Positions 24,622 through 36,320 of a stretch of DNA of 64,000 nucleotides are shown here, one piece after another. This stretch comes from Geoalkalibacter halelectricus (GTDB lineage: Bacteria > Desulfobacterota > Desulfuromonadia > Desulfuromonadales > Geoalkalibacteraceae). Each line of letters opens with the position of its first letter. The stretch's first letter is position 1. Location: assembly GCF_025263685.1 (NCBI RefSeq), contig NZ_CP092109.1, forward strand, positions 4,031,001 through 4,095,000, written 5' to 3'. The translations under genes were made by a program, and so were the position numbers. The notes beneath the pieces were generated by a model that saw only the letters and a list, made by a program, of their open reading frames with translations, was not told the DNA's origin and did no database searches.

Positions 24622-24701
24622 ATGCCGAACACGCTTCGAGACGGAATAAAAAAACTTAGTATTCCCCAAAGAATTCTTCTGGTTGAGGACATTTGGGACG
24701 A
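24622..24701 (+). pseudogene. Addiction-module antitoxin (TIGR02574-like), N-terminal remnant
   Basis: AAGGAG site and ATG at 24622. Reads MPNTLRDGIKKLSIPQRILL then VEDIWDDRAG, the hallmark L(S)xxERIxLVExIWD of this antitoxin family. It is cut after 27 codons by an IS3 end at 24702. The partner RelE-type toxin is missing. Confidence 0.7.
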
Positions 24702-24808
24702 TAGAGCTGGTACCAAAATTTCGGACAGTGCATTAAGGTGGACAGCCACGCACTGACGAAAGAGAGGTTCCAATGAGCAAAACGAAACGCAAGCGCTATT
24801 CTGCCGAG
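24702..24808 (+). mobile_element. Solo left end of an IS3-family element
   Basis: TAGAGCTGGTACCAAAATTT start, an AAGAGAGG ribosome site and the first codons of orfA ([12 protein letters not shown]). Same fragment as 30328-30437 (inverse) and 35125-35234. No orfB and no right end. Confidence 0.85.
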
Positions 24809-24809
24809 T

Positions 24810-24918
24810 AGCCTGAGGGAGGCGGCGGCAAGAAGGCTCGGGCCGCTTGCCTCTGGAACAAACACACAACGGGAATTTTAATTGTCGCTGGCCGGGAAAA
24901 ATAGTTGACGTTGATCAC
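24810..24918. mobile_element. Solo left end (109 bp) of the IS21 element
   Basis: The reverse complement of 27598-27706. It abuts the IS3 fragment on one side and a terminator-like hairpin on the other. Confidence 0.85.
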
Positions 24919-26521: not shown

Positions 26522-26862
26522 GGTGAATACTGGGTATGGTTGGGAAAACGCCCTTTTTTTTGGGGCTTGGGGAATGCCATCTCGTAGAAGAGGATTAATA
26601 ATGCGCCCAAGATTCCCACAGATGCCAGCAACCAAAGCAATCCAGCACAACTTCTGAGACAATTCCGTAACTACAGATGTTAGCAAGTACCTCTCTCCAA
26701 TACCTTTGGCCCCCTGTCTTCCTCCCCAATAAATTTTCGCATGTCAATCTTGTCCCGGTCGAAGTGCGTCATGAGTTGTCGCCGCAATGGTTTACTCTGA
26801 AATAATTCATGCGTGGAACTGGAAAGACGCCTTACGTTTTCGATAAATAACAGAGGCAAGCT

Positions 26863-27490
26863 ATGTGCGGATATTGTACAGAAAAGATAGTATTCAGCAT
26901 TCTTGAGCGGCAAAGGGCCAACTGCATTGGCCAGCTTGATCCAGTTTTTGAATGTGAATATTTTCTCCAGGAAGAGGAAAACGTTCCCGTTGCCTTGAAT
27001 GCCATTTCCGCCGAAATGGGCCAGCCAAAGATCTCCCCTAGTCCTGGTTCTTCGGCACTAACGTTTTTGTGTCGAGGCCTTGAATTGCTTCTTCAGCAAG
27101 GGTTTGATTCTCCATCCTACCAGAAACTTTTAGGGAACCATCTCTTCCGCGTAGCGCTTAAGGCGGTGTGTTCGCCGAAATCACGTAAGAAGTTTTGCCA
27201 ACTGTCTTCGGAAAAAGGATTCGGTTCCCTGAGCCTTCTCTATGAGCAGGCGACCTTCACTGATGGTGACATGGCGAAGCGACTTCAACTCAGTGCTGAT
27301 CGCAAAGCCGAAGCAGAATCCCTCCTTCAGCATTACATCAACTGGTGGCTGCTGGGCCATGGTTTGCAAAAAGACAAACAGCATGAATCTACAATCTCGA
27401 TATCCAGCCATCACACCTTCTATTCCCTCTTTCTCGCTGTCTGGTACAGTGTTGTTCTTCTTGGGCCAGAGCCGGAAGGTCAACAGTTTT
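26863..27490 (+). pseudogene. Unknown gene, 3'-truncated by an ISL3 end
   Basis: About 209 residues (opening MCGYCTEKIVFSILERQ) with several Cys and aromatic clusters and a hydrophobic stretch near the cut (FYSLFLAVWYSVVLLG). No recognised family. The last 36 codons of the frame are from the ISL3 end, so the natural C-terminus is lost. Medium GC content. A 77-codon antisense frame (26680-26913) overlaps its start but looks random. Confidence 0.45.
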
Positions 27491-27597
27491 GGCTCTTCGC
27501 TGTTTCAAGTGGGTTGAGGGAATTTGAGCTTGCCGGCAATGAGGTACGCCATGGCAATCAGGTTGTCGGGATTGCGATAGCCTCTTGCCTTGGCTTT
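27491..27597. mobile_element. Solo ISL3 right end (107 bp)
   Basis: Starts GGCTCTTCGCTG and ends in TTGGCTTT, the same fragment as 18775-18886 and 32807-32916. It directly abuts the IS21 left end. Confidence 0.9.
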
Positions 27598-27707
27598 TGA
27601 TCAACGTCAACTATTTTTCCCGGCCAGCGACAATTAAAATTCCCGTTGTGTGTTTGTTCCAGAGGCAAGCGGCCCGAGCCTTCTTGCCGCCGCCTCCCTC
27701 AGGCTTC

Positions 27708-27953
27708 CTACAGGTAATGCCGCTGAAGTTCCCTGGCCTTTTTCTGGCTGTACCCGATGTCCGCCCTGGACACATCGTAGACGTAGGTCGGGTGGTCAAA
27801 GCCTGACTTGATGATCAGTCCAGCGTTGCAGTCGGTGATCATGGTGACGCTGCCATGGCCGCGGCAGGGGAACCGCGTCGTATTCTCAGGGGTGAACTCC
27901 ACCTCAAGCGTCTCCAGGCGGCCTTTCCGAGGGTTATAGACTAAGCATTCCAT
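27708..27953 (-). CDS. Small passenger protein of IS21
   Basis: 81 residues ([20 protein letters not shown] ... [14 protein letters not shown]), overlapping the istB stop by 13 bases. A conserved Cys-His pattern is not obvious. Third genes of this type are unusual in IS21; it may be a regulatory helper or a passenger. Family not recognised. Confidence 0.55.
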
Positions 27954-28750
27954 GGTATGTCCTCTTGTGGGGAATTTTGGCCAGGCTCTGACTGGGACTG
28001 CGCCTTGTGCGATTCTTCCAGACGGTAGCTGGGGATGTTGAGTTCCAGGATGACGCTGTGGTGAACGAGCCGGTCGATGGCGGCCGCCGTGGTCATGGGG
28101 TCTTTAAAGATCTGCTCCCACTTCGAGAAGGGCAGATTGCTGGTGAGCATGATGCTGCCGCGCTCATAGCGGTCGGCCAGCAGGGTGAAGAGGACCTCCA
28201 TCTCCTCGCGACTTTGCTGCACATACCCGATGTCGTCGATGATCAGCGCCTCGTACTTTGCGTACTGCTTGAGGACGCGTGAGAGCCTCAGATCCCTCTT
28301 GGCGATGAGAAGCTCCTGCACCAGCAGGCTGCATGGCGTAAAGCGTACCGGCCGGCCCTGATGAACCAGTTCCTGTGCCAGCGCGCACAGCAGATGGGTC
28401 TTGCCGCTGCCGGGGTTGCCGAAGGCCAGTACGTTTTCTTTATGATCCAGGAACTTGCCCTTGAGGAGCTGGGTGAGCTGGGTATCGAGCTTGCGCGGCA
28501 GTCGCTTGCGGTTGAACGCCTTGAGGTTTTTCTCCAGCGGCAGCTTGGAGTCCTTGAGCAGACGCGCTGTTCTGGCGTTGCGGCGCTCTTCGCGCTCGCG
28601 CTCGGCCAGCTCCAGCAGGTAGCTCTCGTACTCCCAGTTGTCCCGGCGGGCAGCGATTGCGGTCTCCTGATAGCAGCGCCGGATGGTGGGCAGGCGCAGT
28701 TCGGTAAGGCGGCGGTGCAGGCGGAGAGCGTTCTCCTTCTCAGATTGCAT
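27941..28750 (-). CDS. istB: IS21 helper ATPase IstB
   Basis: 269 residues from the ATG at 28750. Walker A is FGNPGSGKTH, Walker B ALIIDDIGYVQQS, and sensor I SIMLTSNLPFSKW, the usual IstB order, with an N-terminal helical domain (LRLPTIRRCYQETAIAA). IstB binds target DNA and stimulates IstA. It overlaps the istA stop by 11 bases. Confidence 0.92.
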   Translation of the reverse strand: MQSEKENALRLHRRLTELRLPTIRRCYQETAIAARRDNWEYESYLLELAEREREERRNARTARLLKDSKLPLEKNLKAFNRKRLPRKLDTQLTQLLKGKFLDHKENVLAFGNPGSGKTHLLCALAQELVHQGRPVRFTPCSLLVQELLIAKRDLRLSRVLKQYAKYEALIIDDIGYVQQSREEMEVLFTLLADRYERGSIMLTSNLPFSKWEQIFKDPMTTAAAIDRLVHHSVILELNIPSYRLEESHKAQSQSEPGQNSPQEDIPWNA

Positions 28751-30245
28751 ACGCCATCGCCTCCATGGACAAGAGACGGTCGTAGCTCGCAAGATCGACC
28801 GCGGCGACGCCGATCTCGGCAACCGGCGAGGCAATCGGCTCGACATGGATCAGGTTCTCCACGGCCTGCGCCGTGATGGGTTGCCGTCCGCACAGCTCGC
28901 GCAGGGCCGCCGCGACCGCCGCTTCGCTCTCTTTCGCCGCCAGCGCCAGGATCTTCAAGTACTCGCGCGCCGCCACTTGCGGCGTGTGGCGCTCTTTGAG
29001 CTCATCATAGGCGAGCCGGAAGCAACTGCCGGGGAACATCTCCTCGCGGTAGCGGTAATTCTCGAAGGCGCCCGGCTTGCGCTGCAGCTGATCGATGACG
29101 TGGCGGTAGTTGATGAGATGGCGGCACTTACCACGCAGGCGGGGCAGCGTCTCCACGCGCTTCTGGGCGTAGTAAAGGTCGAGATGGTCGGCAAAAAGCG
29201 CGACGTGCAGGCTCTCGCCGATCAGGCGACTTTCGACGGAATAGGTGTTGTTGCTGACCCGGATGGTGCTGGCTCTGCTGACCGTGACCTCAAGACGGGT
29301 ACAGCTTTCCAGCCGTCTGTGCGGCAGGGGATGCAGCATGCGTTGCTCCTCCCACAAGCGCTCGCGGCGACCACGGTTGAGCCGGGCGAAGAGCTCGCGC
29401 AGAAAGCCCCGGTACTCCGCGATGCTCTCAAAGTCGAAGCTGCCGCGCAGAAGAAGGGCCTGCCGAACCGCCCTCTTCAAGCGGTGGTTGCTCTGCTCCA
29501 CGTCGCCATTCTCGTTGGGACTGCCGGCCTGCGTCTTGCGACCGCTCAGGCCGTAATGTCTGAGCAGGGCCTGGTAGCGTTGGGTGAACTCCTGCTGATG
29601 CAGGGCATTGTGCACCGCCGCCGTCAGCCGGTCGGTTTGGTGGGCCTGCGGCACGCCGCCGAGTTCCCACAGCGCCGCCTGCAGCCCCTCGCTGAGACTC
29701 TCGAAGCTCTCCGAGTAGCAGATGCTGCCGGTTTCCCAGTTGGAGTAGGTGAGCACGAAGTGATAGATGAGGTGGTCGAACGGCTGCTTGGCGATGGTGA
29801 TGCCGAGCTTGCCCATGTGGGTGAAATCAGACTGGGCCAACTCGCCGGGGCGGTGCAGTTGGGGGAAGAACGTTTCCTTGGCGGGGCCTTCCAGGGCACG
29901 CCAGCGCTTCACGCGACGCTGCAGGGTGCGCAGTTGGCCGTCGGAGAACGTGTCGGGAAAGCGGCGCTGAAGGTCCTCGAAGAGGGTCTTTGCCTCCAGC
30001 CCCGGGTTATCGGCAAGCTTCTCACGAACTTGCTCCCAATGGGTCTCAAAAGGGTCTGGCCTGGTTCGCCAGGTGTGTTCAACCTTGAGTTCGCTGGGCA
30101 GTTTGCCCGCCTTGACGTACTTGCGGGCGGTCTTTTCGTCCATGCCGGCTTTGGCTGCGGCAATGGCGCCTGTGGCTTGCGTTTTCATCAACTTGAATAA
30201 CCTCCTTACCTGTTGATCGGTGACCATCCGCCATCCTTTCTCCAA
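28740..30245 (-). CDS. istA: IS21 transposase IstA
   Basis: About 495-501 residues. The N-terminal HTH is AIAAAKAGMDEKTARKYV. The rve core has Asp in LAQSDFTHMGKLG, Asp in PQAHQTDRLTAAV and Glu in NENGDVEQSNHRL. The C-terminal domain has VSNNTYSVESRLIGE. Complete and probably functional. The start at 30227 (MVTDQQ) is as plausible as 30245. Confidence 0.92.
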   Translation of the reverse strand: MEKGWRMVTDQQVRRLFKLMKTQATGAIAAAKAGMDEKTARKYVKAGKLPSELKVEHTWRTRPDPFETHWEQVREKLADNPGLEAKTLFEDLQRRFPDTFSDGQLRTLQRRVKRWRALEGPAKETFFPQLHRPGELAQSDFTHMGKLGITIAKQPFDHLIYHFVLTYSNWETGSICYSESFESLSEGLQAALWELGGVPQAHQTDRLTAAVHNALHQQEFTQRYQALLRHYGLSGRKTQAGSPNENGDVEQSNHRLKRAVRQALLLRGSFDFESIAEYRGFLRELFARLNRGRRERLWEEQRMLHPLPHRRLESCTRLEVTVSRASTIRVSNNTYSVESRLIGESLHVALFADHLDLYYAQKRVETLPRLRGKCRHLINYRHVIDQLQRKPGAFENYRYREEMFPGSCFRLAYDELKERHTPQVAAREYLKILALAAKESEAAVAAALRELCGRQPITAQAVENLIHVEPIASPVAEIGVAAVDLASYDRLLSMEAMAYAI

Positions 30246-30327
30246 AGATGGACGGAACTTTATAACCCCTTAAAAATTCCGGGAATTATAATTGTCGCCG
30301 AACCGGAGGTTTAATTGTCGCTGATCA

Positions 30328-30437
30328 GAACTCGGCAGAATAGCGCTTGCGTTTCGTTTTGCTCATTGGAACCTCTCTTTCGTCAGTGCGTGGCTGTCCA
30401 CCTTAATGCACTGTCCGAAATTTTGGTACCAGCTCTA
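30328..30437 (-). mobile_element. Solo 110-bp left end of the IS3 element
   Basis: Inverse orientation of 35125-35234: orfA start codons, ribosome site and terminus ending GAGCTCTA-side at 30437. No other IS3 part. Confidence 0.85.
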
Positions 30438-30549
30438 TTTTGGGATCCCACTGATCCACACCAATGACGATTTAATTACAGGTTTTCACAACAAAAACTC
30501 TTGTGCATCTAATCTAGCGATTCGCAAGTGCGTGTGTGGAGGTTTTTGC

Positions 30550-30990
30550 ATGGATAGTTTTCAAGGGGAGTTCCACGCTGAGTTTGTCAATGGTGGCATT
30601 TGTTTGCCTATGAAGTTTGCTCGGGTTTTTAGACAATATCCTTCCGACAAACTCGCTTTGTTTAAAATTGAGGAGGATAACCAATGTCCTAAGATAAAGG
30701 GGCAGTTGGGTCTGGCCGAGTTAGGTACTGATAACGAGCTTGGTCCATACATGCAATTTTCTGAAAAGCCATTTGTAATCGAAAAACCATTATCTTCACC
30801 ATGGCGAATAATGCTCCCACCAGAATTTGTCGAGGCAATGGGGTTGCGTGATGGAGATACGCTTGTATTGGCAGGCATGTTTGAACATGTGGTGATTGCT
30901 ACACAAGAAATTTATCAACGTGTCACGGCGCATTCTCAGGAACTTCTTCTGCAATGCCTGAAAAACGATACCGATAAAGAGGAACAATGA
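30550..30990 (+). CDS. MraZ/AbrB-like protein
   Basis: 146 residues from the ATG at 30550 (GTGGAGG site). The first half carries FVNGGICLPMKFARVF; the second carries SSPWRIMLPPEFVEAMGLRDGDTLVLAGMFEHV, a MraZ/SpoVT-AbrB swapped-hairpin repeat. Two such repeats are the MraZ layout, but the gene is far from any cell-wall cluster, so it may be a divergent paralogue or an antitoxin-like regulator. First gene of a putative three-gene group. Confidence 0.6.
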   Translation: MDSFQGEFHAEFVNGGICLPMKFARVFRQYPSDKLALFKIEEDNQCPKIKGQLGLAELGTDNELGPYMQFSEKPFVIEKPLSSPWRIMLPPEFVEAMGLRDGDTLVLAGMFEHVVIATQEIYQRVTAHSQELLLQCLKNDTDKEEQ

Positions 30991-31047
30991 GGCCATTCGC
31001 AGCGCAAATTCATATTTGGCCATGAAAAAATGCACCATGCCTAACCA

Positions 31048-31062
31048 CGACAAAATTTGTCG
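31048..31062. promoter_or_regulatory. 15-bp palindrome upstream of the 31110 gene
   Basis: CGACAAAATTTGTCG, a perfect inverted repeat with one central base, 48 bases before the start codon. A possible operator for the upstream MraZ/AbrB-like protein. Inference. Confidence 0.5.
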
Positions 31063-31109
31063 CGAGCCCATGCGATGATTGATTCAACACCAACACAGGA
31101 GGAATCATC

Positions 31110-31469
31110 ATGGCACGAGTGGCGACTGAAACAGCAGAGATTCTTGCAGCTCTTTTTAACGAAAATTTTCGCGGTGGCGAGAGTGAACGCTATCGCATCG
31201 GCTGGGCTGAGTTACGCAGCATTGCCGGAGTGAAGCGACTGACTTGCGATTACCTCAACCAGATCAATGAGACACTCCAGGAAACAGGCTATCTCCTCGT
31301 CACCTGCGATAATTATTTCGTGGTCGCCGGAGAAAATGATTTTTCCGATGACCGGCGTGTTCCTCAGCGGTTGGTGGAGAAATACCTCTACGATGAGGAT
31401 GAAGATTCGGAAGATATTGACGATTTTGAGGCGGAGGATGAAGACGACGAAGAGGATGATCTGCTCTGA
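31110..31469 (+). CDS. Unknown protein with acidic C-terminal tail
   Basis: 119 residues after an AGGAGG site. The N-terminal 85 residues look folded (ILAALFNENFRGGESERYRIG ... GYLLVTCDNYFVVAG); the last 30 are almost all Asp/Glu (DEDEDSEDIDDFEAEDEDDE). Such tails often mimic nucleic acid or bind basic proteins. No family is recognised. Probably co-ordinated with the 31562 gene, separated by a hairpin. Confidence 0.6.
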   Translation: MARVATETAEILAALFNENFRGGESERYRIGWAELRSIAGVKRLTCDYLNQINETLQETGYLLVTCDNYFVVAGENDFSDDRRVPQRLVEKYLYDEDEDSEDIDDFEAEDEDDEEDDLL

Positions 31470-31496
31470 ATGTGATAAGTGATGGCGATTCATGAA

Positions 31497-31544
31497 AAGA
31501 TCCACCTCCGGTCAGTCCAAAGCGGAAGCCCGGAGGTGGATCTT
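31497..31544. terminator. 15-bp perfect hairpin between two genes
   Basis: AAGATCCACCTCCGG (31497-31511) and its inverse CCGGAGGTGGATCTT (31530-31544) with an 18-base loop. No long T-tract follows, and the right arm lies close to the ribosome site AGGAGG of the next gene. Could be an attenuator or a translation-control element rather than a plain terminator. Confidence 0.6.
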
Positions 31545-31561
31545 AGTGAAAGGAGGCCCTG

Positions 31562-32128
31562 ATGGTTTTGGCAGAGCAAGTCGCTGCTCAGACAACCCCC
31601 CGCATCATGACGGTGTGCATCGGTTCATTTGGCAGAATGGTTGGTAGGCAGATCAAGCGCACCGTGAAGAATGCCCCCTGCATTGTTCCTGATCTATACG
31701 GCGACCTCCAACTGGATTCGCCAGAAATAAAAAGCCGAATTGTCCGCTCGGACGTTATTTTCCTAGTGCTGGATGTTCGGGATTCGCTATCTCTTACTTC
31801 CGCCAAGCGCCTAATTGAAGAGGTAATCCCAGGGGAAACACTGAAAGCGATCCTGACTTGGGATTTAGCCGAAGACCAAGCGGAAGAACCTCATGCCCGC
31901 TTACTTAAAGATTATGCCTTGCCTTGCGCCTGCCTCGTTGCTTCTCCTCTCAGTCTCGGTCCTTCGCACGAAGATCTGTTGGACAAGTTCGGGATCGAGA
32001 TGATCGCCACGTGGCTGATCTGCCAATTTGTGGAGAAGGTTCTCCGGCGAATAAACAACAGTAAAAATTTGGACATCGAGTTTGAAAATCTCAAGTTCTC
32101 GCTGTGCCAAGGAGGCTTTGTCTCATGA
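31562..32128 (+). CDS. Unknown protein, possibly nucleotide-binding
   Basis: 188 residues. Begins with a strand-loop-helix TVCIGSFGRMVGRQIKRTV resembling a Rossmann or P-loop-like turn, then SDVIFLVLDVRDSLSLTSAK and LKAILTWDLAED, alternating strands and helices. The pattern recalls tubulin/FtsZ- or TrkA-like nucleotide folds, but no diagnostic motif is complete. Strong ribosome site. A further tiny frame follows with its own AAGGAGG. Confidence 0.5.
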   Translation: MVLAEQVAAQTTPRIMTVCIGSFGRMVGRQIKRTVKNAPCIVPDLYGDLQLDSPEIKSRIVRSDVIFLVLDVRDSLSLTSAKRLIEEVIPGETLKAILTWDLAEDQAEEPHARLLKDYALPCACLVASPLSLGPSHEDLLDKFGIEMIATWLICQFVEKVLRRINNSKNLDIEFENLKFSLCQGGFVS

Positions 32129-32160
32129 ATGATGTGTCAAAAAGGCGTAAGTTCCACTAA
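32125..32160 (+). pseudogene. Start of a fourth gene, cut after 11 codons
   Basis: ATG at 32125 overlapping the previous stop, with AAGGAGG 11 bases before. The frame MNDVSKRRKFH ends at TAA (32158-32160). Good initiation signals but no body; probably the 5' stub of a lost downstream gene. Confidence 0.35.
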
Positions 32161-32281
32161 AGTTGCGTGTTAGTACTCATAACTTTTTAAGTACATGTTC
32201 AGTCGCATTGGCAGCGCCGCGTAGAACCACAGGCTGTGCCAAGTGGAGTTGTGCTCTTGATTAACACTCATCTACCCTATT

Positions 32282-32566
32282 TTAACGTCCAGCCCTAAGT
32301 TCGAGAAGTAAACTGTAAGACGTTACAAAATTGACCGCTTCCAATGCGGACCAAAGAGATACCACTGCTTGGCTCTGAATCCCCTCTCGATCTATGAAAT
32401 AGCCAATAAAGTGATCCTCAGACCAAACGAACTTAAAATCAAGAGACCTGACTGTATTATATTTCAAATATATTGTCTTCTTCTCTTGACTAATGTTGAG
32501 TTCAACGCCTTCGATTTCATCCAAAACTTCTAATTTATCTACTATGTTGTCGATGATGTGTGCCAT
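32282..32566 (-). CDS. Unknown small protein
   Basis: 94 residues with a clear GGAGA site before the ATG at 32566. IIDNIVDKLEVLDEIEGVEL then DFKFVWSEDHFIGYFIDREG and SLWSALEAVNFV suggest a compact alpha/beta protein. AT-richer than its neighbours, suggesting transfer. No family recognised. The 32161-32281 gap is empty. Confidence 0.5.
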   Translation of the reverse strand: MAHIIDNIVDKLEVLDEIEGVELNISQEKKTIYLKYNTVRSLDFKFVWSEDHFIGYFIDREGIQSQAVVSLWSALEAVNFVTSYSLLLELRAGR

Positions 32567-32696
32567 AAAATAATCTCCATTTAATATATTGCTGTATTTG
32601 TGTTAACATGCAAAATTCTCTGATAAATACTTGAATTTTCAAAATAATCAACAACTAAAACTGTCACATATTTCTTCGTAGTTGTTTTCAATATTT

Positions 32697-32806
32697 CTGA
32701 AGTTTAGAGTTTCGCGATCTTTGAAAATTTGCCGAAGTCGTAAAAATAGTGCTTGACAGGACGACCACCTTGTGTGGCCGCGCCTTCAAAGCGATTGATA
32801 TTGGAG
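32697..32806 (+). mobile_element. Solo 110-bp left end of the IS701-like element
   Basis: Identical to 53046-53155, starting CTGAAGTTTAGAG and stopping in the loop of the hairpin that normally precedes the transposase gene. Confidence 0.9.
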
Positions 32807-32916
32807 GCCAAAGCCAAGGCAAGAGGCTATCGCAATCCCGACAACCTGATTGCCATGGCGTACCTCATTGCCGGCAAGCTCAAATTCCCTCAACCCACTT
32901 GAAACAGCGAAGAGCC
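32807..32916 (+). mobile_element. Solo 110-bp ISL3 right end
   Basis: Identical to 63243-63352 and ending GAAGAGCC. Joined without a gap to the IS701-like end on its left and truncated hsdS on its right. Confidence 0.9.
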
Positions 32917-33981
32917 AGATTGAATCACTTCGGAATTGCATTGATATTTAATATAATCTCTATTGTAATCCTTGCTGTTAAAATCAGTTATTTTTGCGGC
33001 ATTTTCAGTTAGTTGAGCGTTATCAAGATTGTCTGGAACTGTTCCAAAAAGCCCTAAAGTTCCAGCTATGGTCACATAGACGTCATTTTTAGAAATTTTA
33101 TATGCCCTTATCAGCGGTTCAATATTCTCAGGAACATACTTGAGATCGCGTTGATCAATAGTTCCATCAACCATATCTGTTACACGAAGATAAGGGAATG
33201 GTGTCATTACATCAGCAAAATCCTGCCCTGCTGGCAGTCGCTTCCCACCTTTAACATTAGCGAAATCGCCAATTCTTGCCACCTCCCACTCCTTCGGCAC
33301 CAATCCCAGTTCCGTCTGTTTGTACAAATGGGGCGCATCCTCATGCCGTGGACGTAGCCGTCCGTTTGCATCTAGCCCACGGGTGAACAGGTCGAGCATC
33401 ATCCCCTGTTTGATGGCCTTGTATTTGGCAATGGAGGCTTCGGTCTTTTCGATCACGGAGTTAACGGTGGAGAGAATGCGGGCGATTTTGCGCTGTTCGG
33501 GAAGGGTGGGACATGGAATTTTTAGCTTATTAATATCTTTTAGAACAAGCCTCTTTAAAGCACTCCCTGATTGCAGCTGATATAATTGCCTATTAAAAAT
33601 ATCCGAGCGTAGAATTGTGTACAAATAATCAGGGTCAATCTTACCATTTGTGCGTAATATTGCGATTGAAGATAACAATACAATCTTTCTATGATCTCGA
33701 TAAACAACTACTCTTCCAATTGTTCCGTCTTTTGACAACAATACGTCGTTATGTTTAGGAGAACAGTTTTGTCTACATAAAAAATCAAATTCTGCAGTAG
33801 ATATTCTAGTACATGAATTATAATTTATTCCCCATTCTGTCATATCCTTAACGTTGGCAATTATTTCACCATCAGCTTGCGGAACAGGACTGAAATGAGA
33901 GCCATCGGTAATAAGCTCACATAAATGACTTAACTCTTGAATTTTCCAAATTATAGGACAAAGATTCTGATTAGTATTCAT
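32917..33981 (-). pseudogene. hsdS: Type I restriction specificity subunit HsdS, 3'-truncated
   Basis: About 355 residues. The first target-recognition domain (CELITDGSHFSPV... DVLLSKDGTIG) is followed by the conserved spacer helix LPEQRKIARILSTVNSVIEKTE... GMMLDLFTRGLD. The second domain starts LGLVPKEWEVARIGDFANVKGGKRL and stops before its own spacer helix; the last seven codons of the frame come from the ISL3 end. HsdS recognises a bipartite DNA site. It starts 11 bases before the HsdM stop. Truncation should abolish or alter specificity. Confidence 0.9.
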
Positions 33982-35124
33982 ACCCCAGCTCCTTCAGGAA
34001 GCCGGTAAACACCAGACTTGCCTCGTCCCGCTCCAACAAAATACTGTGCAGCGGCTGGTGATAATTATCCCAGAGCCAATCCAGAGCTGTCCGCAGGTCG
34101 CGGCCATACTGGGCCAGATATTCGGCCACCGTGCCGTGCAGTGTGCGCTGCCAACGGACCAGGATCAGCCGCTTTGCCTCGACCTCGTCGATCTTCTTCC
34201 GTGCCTCTTCCACCAGCGCCGCCTTGCGCTCCTTGATCTCCTTGATAATTTTTTTGCAGCTCTTCAGCTCGGCCTCAAGCTCATGGTGCCGGGCAATGCG
34301 GGCTTCTTCCGCTGAAATTTCCTTCTCCAGCACCGTACTCTGTCCGGTCAGTTGCTCAAGTTCAGCGGTAACCGCAGCGGTTGACTCTCCGGCTTTTTTC
34401 AGCGCCGCCACCTGCTTGGTGCGGTTCTTGACCTCCCGCGTCAGCTCTTTCAGCTCGCCACCCTTTTCCTTGATGGCACCCTTCACCTCGGCCAGCTCGT
34501 CTTTGGGCCAGACCTCGTAATCATCTTCGCTCCAGGCACCTTCCTCCAGATCGTTCACCTCTTTGAACAGCGCGGTCAGCTCATCGCGGCGGGCCTCGTT
34601 GTCCCGCAACTCCTTCAACACTTCGGGGAACTGGCTCTGCAGGATCTCCTCATCAGGGATAAGCTCGGCATTCCAGCCACTGGCGGCTACGCTGCGCAGG
34701 TCGGTGTAGAGCGCGTTCCAGTAGGCGGCGAAGGCCCCCCGGCTCTTGAAGTCGTCCAGAATCCCCAATGCACCGATGCTGCCGGTGATGGTGCCGGAAA
34801 AGCGGTGATACAGGTCAAAGACGTTCTTTTCCGTTGGCAGCGCCTCCAAGTCCGGCAAGTGGGTTTGCCACCAGCTCTCCAGTGCAGAGGTAAAGGCAGC
34901 ATGTTTGCCTGCAATCTCTTCACTCTGGTCAAGAATTCCCTTGATCGCCTCTTTCTTGGTAATGGTCGGGAGGTATTGCATATACCCGGGCTTCAGAGGG
35001 GCAAAGAGTCTCTCCCGCAGACCGTTGTAGTTACTCCAGTAGAGTGACAACGCGTCCACTTCCGGCTCGGGGATACCGCCGTGCAGGTGGGCGTGGACAT
35101 CATGAGGCGCGGCAGGTGGGCTGT
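33971..35124 (-). pseudogene. hsdM: Type I methyltransferase HsdM, C-terminal part
   Basis: Coding sequence is traceable from 35124 (HDVHAHLHGGIPEPEVDALS) to the stop at 33971. It is the C-terminal portion: a helical/coiled-coil region (KELTREVKNRTKQVAALKKA, LEAELKSCKKIIKEIKERK) and LRTALDWLWDNYHQPLHSIL. The SAM-binding and NPPF catalytic motifs would lie upstream and are lost at the IS3 end. Operon with hsdS. Confidence 0.85.
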
Positions 35125-35355: not shown

Positions 35356-36320
35356 GGGGTCGGACCAAGCCAACCCATTGATATTCCACAGGATTAGGTC
35401 TTGAAATAAGCGTTTTTCACCCTTATAGCCTAATTTTTCAGGCTGAAATCAGCGCCATAGCTCTCTTCCGGTTCACACAAAACGAACAAATCGCCTTGTC
35501 CGACGATGTTGCGGCTTTTCCCCCCTGCGCCGAGCAAATCCTGGGTTCCGAGAACAAACGATTCACTTCCGACGGCAAGGCTTTTACTCCAGGCCTCGTT
35601 GCGCCCCAAGTCATTGGTGCGCAAGGCCTCCTGCACCCACTCGTTGTGAATATCCACCAGTGCAGGTAAGCTGCCGATGCCGGCAGAGCTCGCCAAGGCA
35701 TCAAGATCAAGGAGTCGATTGCGACGCCGCTGTCCCTGAATCTCAAGGTACCCGCCATGCCGCCACTCTTCGGGGTGGCTGACCGCACCTGCCCGAACCA
35801 TGTTCAGATCGATGTATACCAGGCAACGCAACAGATGCTCGCCCGATTCTATGGCGGTCGCATGGTAGCGATCTTCCCAGAAAGCCCCTTTGCGCTCTTT
35901 GCGTTGATTATATTCCTGCCCGGTGCGCCCGGCGAGCAACTGCATGGCCGAAGGGATGCAATTGGTCGCGCCCTGATCCCTGACCAGTAGATGAACATGA
36001 TTGCTGGTCACCACGTAGTTGAGAATTTGCAGGCGATAGCGTTTGCGCGCTTCGCCGAGCCAGAAAACAAAGCGGTTCCGGTCGTGGGCGAATTTGAGAA
36101 GAAATTCTTTTTTGTGGCAACGATGCGTGATGTGCCAGATGTAACCGGGGACATAGTGACGATTGGCCCGTGGCATGATTCCCCTCCCCTATCAATTTCA
36201 TACCGATTGCAGGACATAAATGCGATTTTGCCCCCCCCAAAATCGAGCCATAGGGGAATTTTTGAGGTGTTTTTTTGACTGTTTCCTTCTTGTTTCGGTC
36301 GGTTACCTTGGTCCGACCCC
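35356..36320 (-). mobile_element. RAYT unit bounded by inverted GGGGTCGGACCAAG
   Basis: The transposase-like gene lies between GGGGTCGGACCAAG (35356-35369) and its exact inverse CTTGGTCCGACCCC (36307-36320). The 14-bp terminus is identical to terminus A of the TA-cassette repeats. Upstream of the gene the sequence holds the CCCTATGGCTCGATTTTG region; part of it recurs at 47905-48098. Confidence 0.8.
35430..36176 (-). CDS. REP-associated tyrosine transposase (RAYT, Y1/HUH)
   Basis: 248 residues. The Y1 transposase core is ARRANged as GYIWHITHRCHKKEFLL, VTSNHVHLLVRD (HUH motif), WEDRYHATAIES (catalytic-Tyr region near residue 103) and LVYIDLNMVRAGAVSHPEEW. The last 90 residues are a C-terminal extension typical of RAYTs. 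These proteins nick REP-type hairpins next to a conserved tetranucleotide. Here the substrate candidates are the GGGGTC-terminated repeats. Confidence 0.9.
   Translation of the reverse strand: MPRANRHYVPGYIWHITHRCHKKEFLLKFAHDRNRFVFWLGEARKRYRLQILNYVVTSNHVHLLVRDQGATNCIPSAMQLLAGRTGQEYNQRKERKGAFWEDRYHATAIESGEHLLRCLVYIDLNMVRAGAVSHPEEWRHGGYLEIQGQRRRNRLLDLDALASSAGIGSLPALVDIHNEWVQEALRTNDLGRNEAWSKSLAVGSESFVLGTQDLLGAGGKSRNIVGQGDLFVLCEPEESYGADFSLKN

Follow-up and report, generated by a model that had tools for sequence, protein, structure and literature searches.

Three clustered genes of Geoalkalibacter halelectricus may be a partly decayed piece of a WYL-controlled accessory module built on division-machinery paralogs

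Results and discussion

Three neighbouring genes of Geoalkalibacter halelectricus (genes 1 to 3, Table 1) are best explained, in our view and with middling confidence, as the surviving and partly decayed piece of an accessory module of the Desulfuromonadia, controlled by a WYL regulator, built on paralogs of the division machinery and acting on division after damage or infection. The genes lie in a 64,000-nucleotide stretch of DNA, here called the window, which covers positions 4,031,001-4,095,000 of a record made up of one 4.13-Mb 'contig'. As in the original prediction, which had been made from the letters of the window alone, all three are open reading frames, each placed behind a GGAGG-type ribosome site.

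Table 1. Positions of the features discussed, in window coordinates
Feature	Position	Strand	Basis or remark
Contig with genes 1-3	30328..32807	.	About 2.5 kb; each end is a ~111-bp repeat shared with other contigs of the record
Gene 1 (146 aa), MraZ paralog, divergent, two AbrB-type repeats	30550..30990	+	MraZ profile
Palindrome CGACAAAATTTGTCG, probable operator of the gene 2 promoter	31048..31062	.	Recurrence in relatives
Gene 2 (119 aa), probably a winged helix, tail acidic	31110..31469	+	Family and predicted topology
Hairpin between genes 2 and 3, 15-bp arms 31497-31511 and 31530-31544	31497..31544	+	Fold score
Gene 3 (188 aa), degenerate FtsZ paralog, N-terminal part without the C-terminal domain	31562..32128	+	Homology via L064
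Palindrome CGTCATGAGTTGTCG before the window MCGYC gene	26767..26781	.	Site scan
MCGYC-family ORF, on a separate contig	26863..27600	+	Coding to about 27484, then insertion sequence

The three genes stand alone on a short contig

Exact repeats of at least 40 bp in the window and the 19 kb that follow it show a sharp peak at 111 bp and do not exceed 115 bp; this one length accounts for 23 of the 60 pairs between 107 and 115 bp. These repeats of about 111 bp abut end to end at many points, including 642/643, 8283/8284, 22009/22010, 24809/24810, 27597/27598, 35234/35235, 37522/37523 and 62043/62044. The IS21 element at 27598-30438 is present once in full and as 20 end stubs (108-117 bp, 98-100% identical), 11 of which fall within the final 71 kb; the joint at 30327/30328 was placed from where these stubs end and begin. 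The lengths between joints from 22010 on, obtained by subtraction, are 2800, 2788, 2730, 2479, 2428 and 2288 bp, a steady decrease from which the contigs seem to be sorted by length. The record looks like a concatenation of length-sorted de Bruijn contigs sharing ends of about 111 nucleotides. If it is made of joined contigs, genes 1-3 stand alone and nothing beyond 30328-32807 is a known neighbour; the location of the operon among accessory genes, on which a possible defence or plasmid-maintenance role had been based, is an artefact of the assembly, the role itself being conceivable but hypothetical, and operons or islands that run across the joints are spurious. The two IS21 end stubs lying side by side at 24701-24917 likewise represent a contig joint rather than a miniature element. 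Elsewhere in the window, fragments of type I restriction-modification genes, for specificity and methylase subunits, occupy 32890-35059, on a separate contig, and a REP-associated tyrosine transposase-like protein, scoring slightly under the NCBIfam cut-off, is encoded at 35430-36176.

Gene 1 resembles MraZ

By profile comparison gene 1 is MraZ-like, in agreement with the MraZ/AbrB-like regulator first proposed. A profile built from five MraZ proteins of the order, for which the loci L033 and L037 yielded no ORF, recognizes it with an E-value of 2.9e-8 at Z = 4000. Gene 1 has both repeats, the second being strong against this profile and the first, taken alone, weak (0.2). With general models the matches to Pfam MazE (0.003) and MraZ (0.096) were both below cut-off, the MraZ scores reaching 13.1 of 23 bits for Pfam and 15.9 of 162 bits for NCBIfam. 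The genome has its own MraZ at G000:C1:89955-90476, beside an ORF that we take to be RsmH-like. Among relatives, the gene preceding gene 2 is weakly MraZ-like in G146 (0.0096); a different gene, presumably HipA-like, is found there in G010, and G166 is likewise without gene 1 at that place.

A toxin-antitoxin or known defence operon, in which gene 1 would be a MraZ/MazE-like antitoxin and gene 3 the toxin, could draw on the weak MazE match, but the presence of both MraZ repeats and the absence of gene 1 before gene 2 in G010 and G166 argue against it, as does the fact that no PADLOC model matched any of the three genes at E-values up to 1. We consider such an operon very improbable, and the earlier statement that the genes belong to no nameable toxin-antitoxin or defence family stands.

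Gene 3 is the front part of a degenerate FtsZ paralog

We are highly confident that gene 3 derives from FtsZ, and its alignments identify it as the GTPase-domain part of an FtsZ paralog lacking the GGGTGTG signature. Taken alone, it gave no FtsZ or tubulin-type Pfam match at E-values up to 5, PF00091 included. Its sure relatives among 147 related genomes are a protein of G010 (77% identity) and a broken copy in G030, and a profile made from the copies in the window and in G010 then retrieved a 279-amino-acid relative in G166 (L064), making four of the 277 genomes of the class in all. This L064 protein, which is 34% identical to gene 3 over the aligned length, contains FtsZ_C above the Pfam cut-off (6e-7), and its C-terminal half aligns with solved FtsZ (1.7e-12). 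Gene 3 ends where the C-terminal domain of FtsZ begins, and FtsZ_C is absent both from it and from the DNA downstream; the G010 protein has the same cut-down form. The T4 loop GGGTG[TS]G has been lost from gene 3, which reads LDVRDSLSLTSA where AGMGSGTGTGA is expected.

More distant relatives in G154, G189, G203 and G226 have FtsZ_C with no Tubulin match at E-values up to 0.1, while FtsZ_C falls below cut-off in that of G264. Intact FtsZ paralogs adjoin the degenerate ones in G226 and G264, and the members found in G229 and G212 are less degenerate, with GGATGT and GGETGT replacing GGGTGT. The family profile A9 covers solved FtsZ end to end at 7e-57, a score much of which may be carried by two of its 14 rows (L125 and L127) that are nearer to ordinary FtsZ. 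The normal FtsZ of the window genome is encoded at C1:73442-74386. The family supplies FtsZ paralogs devoid of the GTP signature but endowed with FtsZ_C, and would show what effect these have on a living Z-ring. Several of the distant FtsZ-like relatives (L081 6805-7752; L083 5332-6237 and 6380-7252) begin with a Tat-like RRxF motif that is not found in gene 3; export or membrane binding would be most surprising in a relative of FtsZ.

Outside these genomes no relative of gene 3 was found by a single-protein search of the genome contig collection, by a search of the viral contig collection with alignment A3, or in the plasmid collection. Weak matches in G052 and G054 were judged to be fortuitous once the ORFs, which we take to be purF-like and wza-like, had been read; another weak match is in G083. 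Gene 3 had been described as a putative nucleotide-binding protein from its Rossmann-like start, and a fold of the FtsZ/tubulin kind, recognized by sequence through L064, fits that description. Of the structure prediction and remote-homology search proposed for checking it, the profiles provided the link to FtsZ, but neither gene 2 nor gene 3 gave a significant fold match: for gene 3, Foldseek returned nothing at E-values up to 0.001 with a single-sequence model (pLDDT 60, pTM 0.60). The supposed stub of a fourth gene amounts to an 11-codon ORF after gene 3, for which nothing was found.

Gene 2 and FtsZ-like genes belong to an accessory gene set

The family of gene 2 is present in 36 of the 277 genomes of the class and in three of 297 genomes drawn across the phylum, one of these being outside the class; named carriers include Pelotalea chapellei DSM 13688, Desulfuromonas sp. 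CSMB_57, an uncultured Desulfuromonadales and an uncultured Geobacteraceae. The protein is small and probably DNA-binding, a winged helix with an acidic tail: a model from five sequences (pLDDT 67.5, pTM 0.52) has the topology H-E-H-H-E-E followed by an unstructured acidic tail, Foldseek matched this model to nothing at E-values up to 0.001, and a TubR chain is among its weak, non-significant fold matches (E-value of 1.3). Gene 2 was not matched in the phage collection and had one weak match in the plasmid collection (3e-3). Four gene 2 relatives at a spacing of about 6.95 kb occur in G261 (C1:209156-230303, partly covered by L119).

A gene order conserved nowhere else had been named as what would refute the proposed operon, and the order of genes 2 and 3 does recur. 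A FtsZ-like gene directly follows gene 2 in the window and in G010, G166, G205, G229 and G153 (where it is a 149-aa piece), and the weakly MraZ-like gene before gene 2 in G146 extends the resemblance to the other side. Gene 2 was found in 11 of the 15 genomes with three or more FtsZ-family matches, as against 25 of the 262 others; in 6/9 against 13/248 when genomes giving rows to the profiles are removed; and in 21 of the 54 genomes with two or more matches against 15 of 223, counts which all ignore the relatedness of the genomes and in which split genes can inflate the number of matches. The neighbourhood of gene 2 was read in 29 of its 36 genomes (all except G148, G217, G227, G237, G254, G265 and G272), and a FtsZ-family gene is within the stretch in only 10 of the 29, so that gene 2 also lives without FtsZ; in G264 such a gene lies about 13 kb away.

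Clustering by blastp shows that FtsZ and FtsA paralogs, an AAA+ ATPase, a protein with the cysteine motif MCGYC, a DUF2779 protein and a WYL regulator recur around gene 2. Pfam names among these recurrent families are DUF2779 (with RNase_H_2 and Cas4-like matches), WYL/WCX and ankyrin, and the MCGYC protein matched no Pfam family. The fullest operon, in G226 (L084 5073-13454), carries on one strand a FtsA-like gene, a degenerate FtsZ, an intact FtsZ paralog, the AAA+ gene (720 aa), the MCGYC gene, another FtsA-like gene, gene 2 and an ankyrin piece. When ten partner proteins were compared with PADLOC models, matches were limited to the AAA+ (IetA, 8e-38), DUF2779 (Cas4, 2e-5), WYL and ankyrin proteins, and no title found among open-licence papers describes such a gene set. 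We consider it likely that gene 2 and the FtsZ-like genes are parts of one accessory gene set equipped with an operator. The MCGYC gene of the window genome is itself split by an insertion sequence, presumably ISL3-like, its second piece lying outside the window at L059 11365-11832; imperfect inverted ends GGCTCTTCGCT are found on both sides of the insertion and the 8-bp flank ACAGTTTT on both pieces.

A palindrome recurs before genes of the set

The 15-bp palindrome upstream of gene 2, noticed when the window was first read, is real and its form recurs. The pattern CG[AT]C-N7-GTCG is found about 62 bp (60-68 bp, within a range of -56 to -70) before 18 of 35 distinct gene 2 starts and is missing from the other 17. 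In 2000 shuffles, this range, which was chosen after seeing the sites, gave a mean of 0.008 and a maximum of 2; anywhere in the 130 bp upstream the count is also 18/35, with a shuffle mean of 0.06 and a maximum of 2. The 35 upstreams include L064 and were obtained by dropping L114 and L116, copies of L084 and L068, and by merging identical sequences (37 to 35); the gene 2 ORF of G149 (L126) had been missed in ORF selection. DNA similar to TATGAGATACT, a possible -10 element, often follows the palindrome. As the site is kept in G010 and G166, where gene 1 is absent, it belongs to the promoter of gene 2 rather than to gene 1, whose protein had been suggested for a binding test on it.

The looser pattern CG[AT]C-N7-G[AT]CG occurs 67 times in 402 kb of loci against 21 times in one shuffle, two of the 67 being counted twice because both L084 and L114 were kept. 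Sites are near the starts of all six distinct AAA+ genes; that of L081 is 17 bp inside the predicted start, and in L115 the gene is incomplete. The same holds for 7 of the 11 WYL genes, 5 of the 13 whole or partial DUF2779 genes and, with the window's own included (site at 26767), 4 of the 9 distinct genes for MCGYC proteins. It is because only part of the WYL, DUF2779 and MCGYC genes is covered that our overall confidence stays at the middling level given above.

The hairpin between genes 2 and 3, which had been suggested to regulate the last gene, also exists as predicted, with perfect arms, the right one ending 17 bases upstream of the gene 3 start. Its fold z-score is -3.96 in the window and -3.59, with one pair broken, in the G010 relative, the only one in which it was seen; it is not in the third relative, L064.

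These sites bear on another explanation, by which the genes would be the segregation module of a mobile element, similar to plasmid TubZ/TubR, in which the palindrome would serve as a centromere-like site and a winged-helix protein as adaptor to a FtsZ-like filament. A tubulin-family gene immediately preceded by a small winged-helix-like one, the non-significant TubR match of gene 2 and the insertion-sequence repeats at the contig ends are what such a module might look like, but the sites are single and stand before several different genes instead of forming an array at one place, the GTP signature of gene 3 has been lost, FtsA-like and WYL proteins are among the partners, and gene 3 is unmatched in the plasmid collection. 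A segregation module seems improbable.

The WYL regulator is a candidate binder

Such sites and a WYL gene are also present at loci of G093 and G154, two genomes in which gene 2 was not found, which makes the WYL protein the better candidate for binding the palindrome. Full copies of this WYL family are present in G010 and G166, with such sites upstream; the window genome has no full member, only one N-terminal match (positions 1-125, 2e-18) and two weaker WYL matches. The solved chains nearest to the family are 7u02, 7tzv, 9cu3, 9pfq and 8tp8 (1.5e-15 to 7.5e-15), of which 7tzv (1.5e-15) and 9pfq (6.7e-15), aligned over the WYL part and not the DNA-binding part, are both DriD, according to the available part of PMC12340889. 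DriD is described there as a WYL activator that is itself activated by single-stranded DNA, has didA among its targets and binds the consensus ATACGAC-N7-GTCGTAT at sites overlapping the -35 element; the product of didA suppresses septum synthesis (PMC4211646, available part). The palindrome, which was defined from the loci before being compared with this consensus, has the form of the core of the published DriD site, the outer ATA/TAT not being kept in the window site. Control of the gene set by a WYL regulator of the DriD type is, on this evidence, slightly favoured.

The main rival for the window's own copy is that the module was once active and that what is left in the window is now without function. 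Gene 3 stops at the start of the FtsZ C-terminal domain with none of that domain following, the MCGYC gene is split (26863-27484 and the piece outside the window), and the genome has only the N-terminal match to the WYL family. On the other hand, the ribosome sites and the operator are intact, and G010 combines the same cut-down gene 3 with a full WYL gene. In comparison with G010, dN/dS is 0.20 for residues 1-160 of gene 3, the last 28 residues being too diverged for scoring, and 0.28 for gene 2, values that speak for constraint but, as averages over two branches, are compatible with a recent loss here. The module in the window genome does look partly decayed; a complete loss of function is a lesser, though serious, possibility.

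How the gene set could act

Under our preferred reading of a WYL-controlled module, single-stranded DNA arising from damage or infection would trigger the DriD-like activator, which would bind the palindrome in the -35 region and turn the genes on, gene 2 perhaps helping to regulate the set. The FtsZ-like and FtsA-like proteins would then alter or stall septum formation, the pseudo-GTPase FtsZ-like protein serving as a partner unable to turn over, and the AAA+ and nuclease-like proteins would act on DNA. That the set acts on cell division in damage or infection is a tentative proposal. More doubtful still is the fullest version of it, an undescribed conflict or damage-response system of the Desulfuromonadia in which a DriD-like WYL activator sensing single-stranded DNA would induce paralogs of FtsZ and FtsA, a pseudo-GTPase among them, which take over or jam the Z-ring, while DNA is acted on by the AAA+ protein and by a nuclease of the Cas4/DUF2779 type and one shared palindrome joins scattered loci into a regulon. 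If true, these bacteria would possess an accessory division apparatus that is induced through a WYL switch and not as part of the SOS response, with a control site that is short and fixed in position.

Comparison with known systems

The closest parallel is DriD/DidA of Caulobacter crescentus, which, in the available parts of PMC12340889 and PMC4211646, has a WYL regulator, an operator core CGAC-N7-GTCG overlapping the -35 element and a target gene that acts on cell division. It differs in that DidA is a small inhibitor (PMC4211646), whereas the partners here are FtsZ and FtsA paralogs, an AAA+ protein and gene 2; the WYL family described here aligns with DriD in the WYL part only, and its control by single-stranded DNA is putative. 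BrxR-type regulators share with our gene set a WYL regulator, inverted-repeat operators and a location in accessory islands, but repression by BrxR involves a pair of 11-bp repeats separated by 5 bp (PMC9122601), unlike the DriD form of the present site, and the word FtsZ is absent from the available text of that paper.

Gene 1 has the two AbrB-type repeats, the FxGEF start and a similar tail in common with MraZ, and differs from it in being a second copy outside the dcw cluster. The gene 3 family is homologous to canonical FtsZ and its relatives keep FtsZ_C, but gene 3 has neither the GGGTGTG loop, nor a PF00091 match, nor the C-terminal domain. Like FtsZl1 and FtsZl2, which are divergent FtsZ-family paralogs kept alongside a normal FtsZ (PMC2875224), the members of this family stand beside a normal FtsZ. 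As far as the available part of PMC2875224 goes, loops T1, T4, T6 and T7 are retained in FtsZl2, which is not associated with other genes, and nothing in FtsZl1 resembles a known C-terminal domain; the gene 3 family is the reverse, T4 being lost, FtsZ_C kept in the relatives and the gene associations strong.
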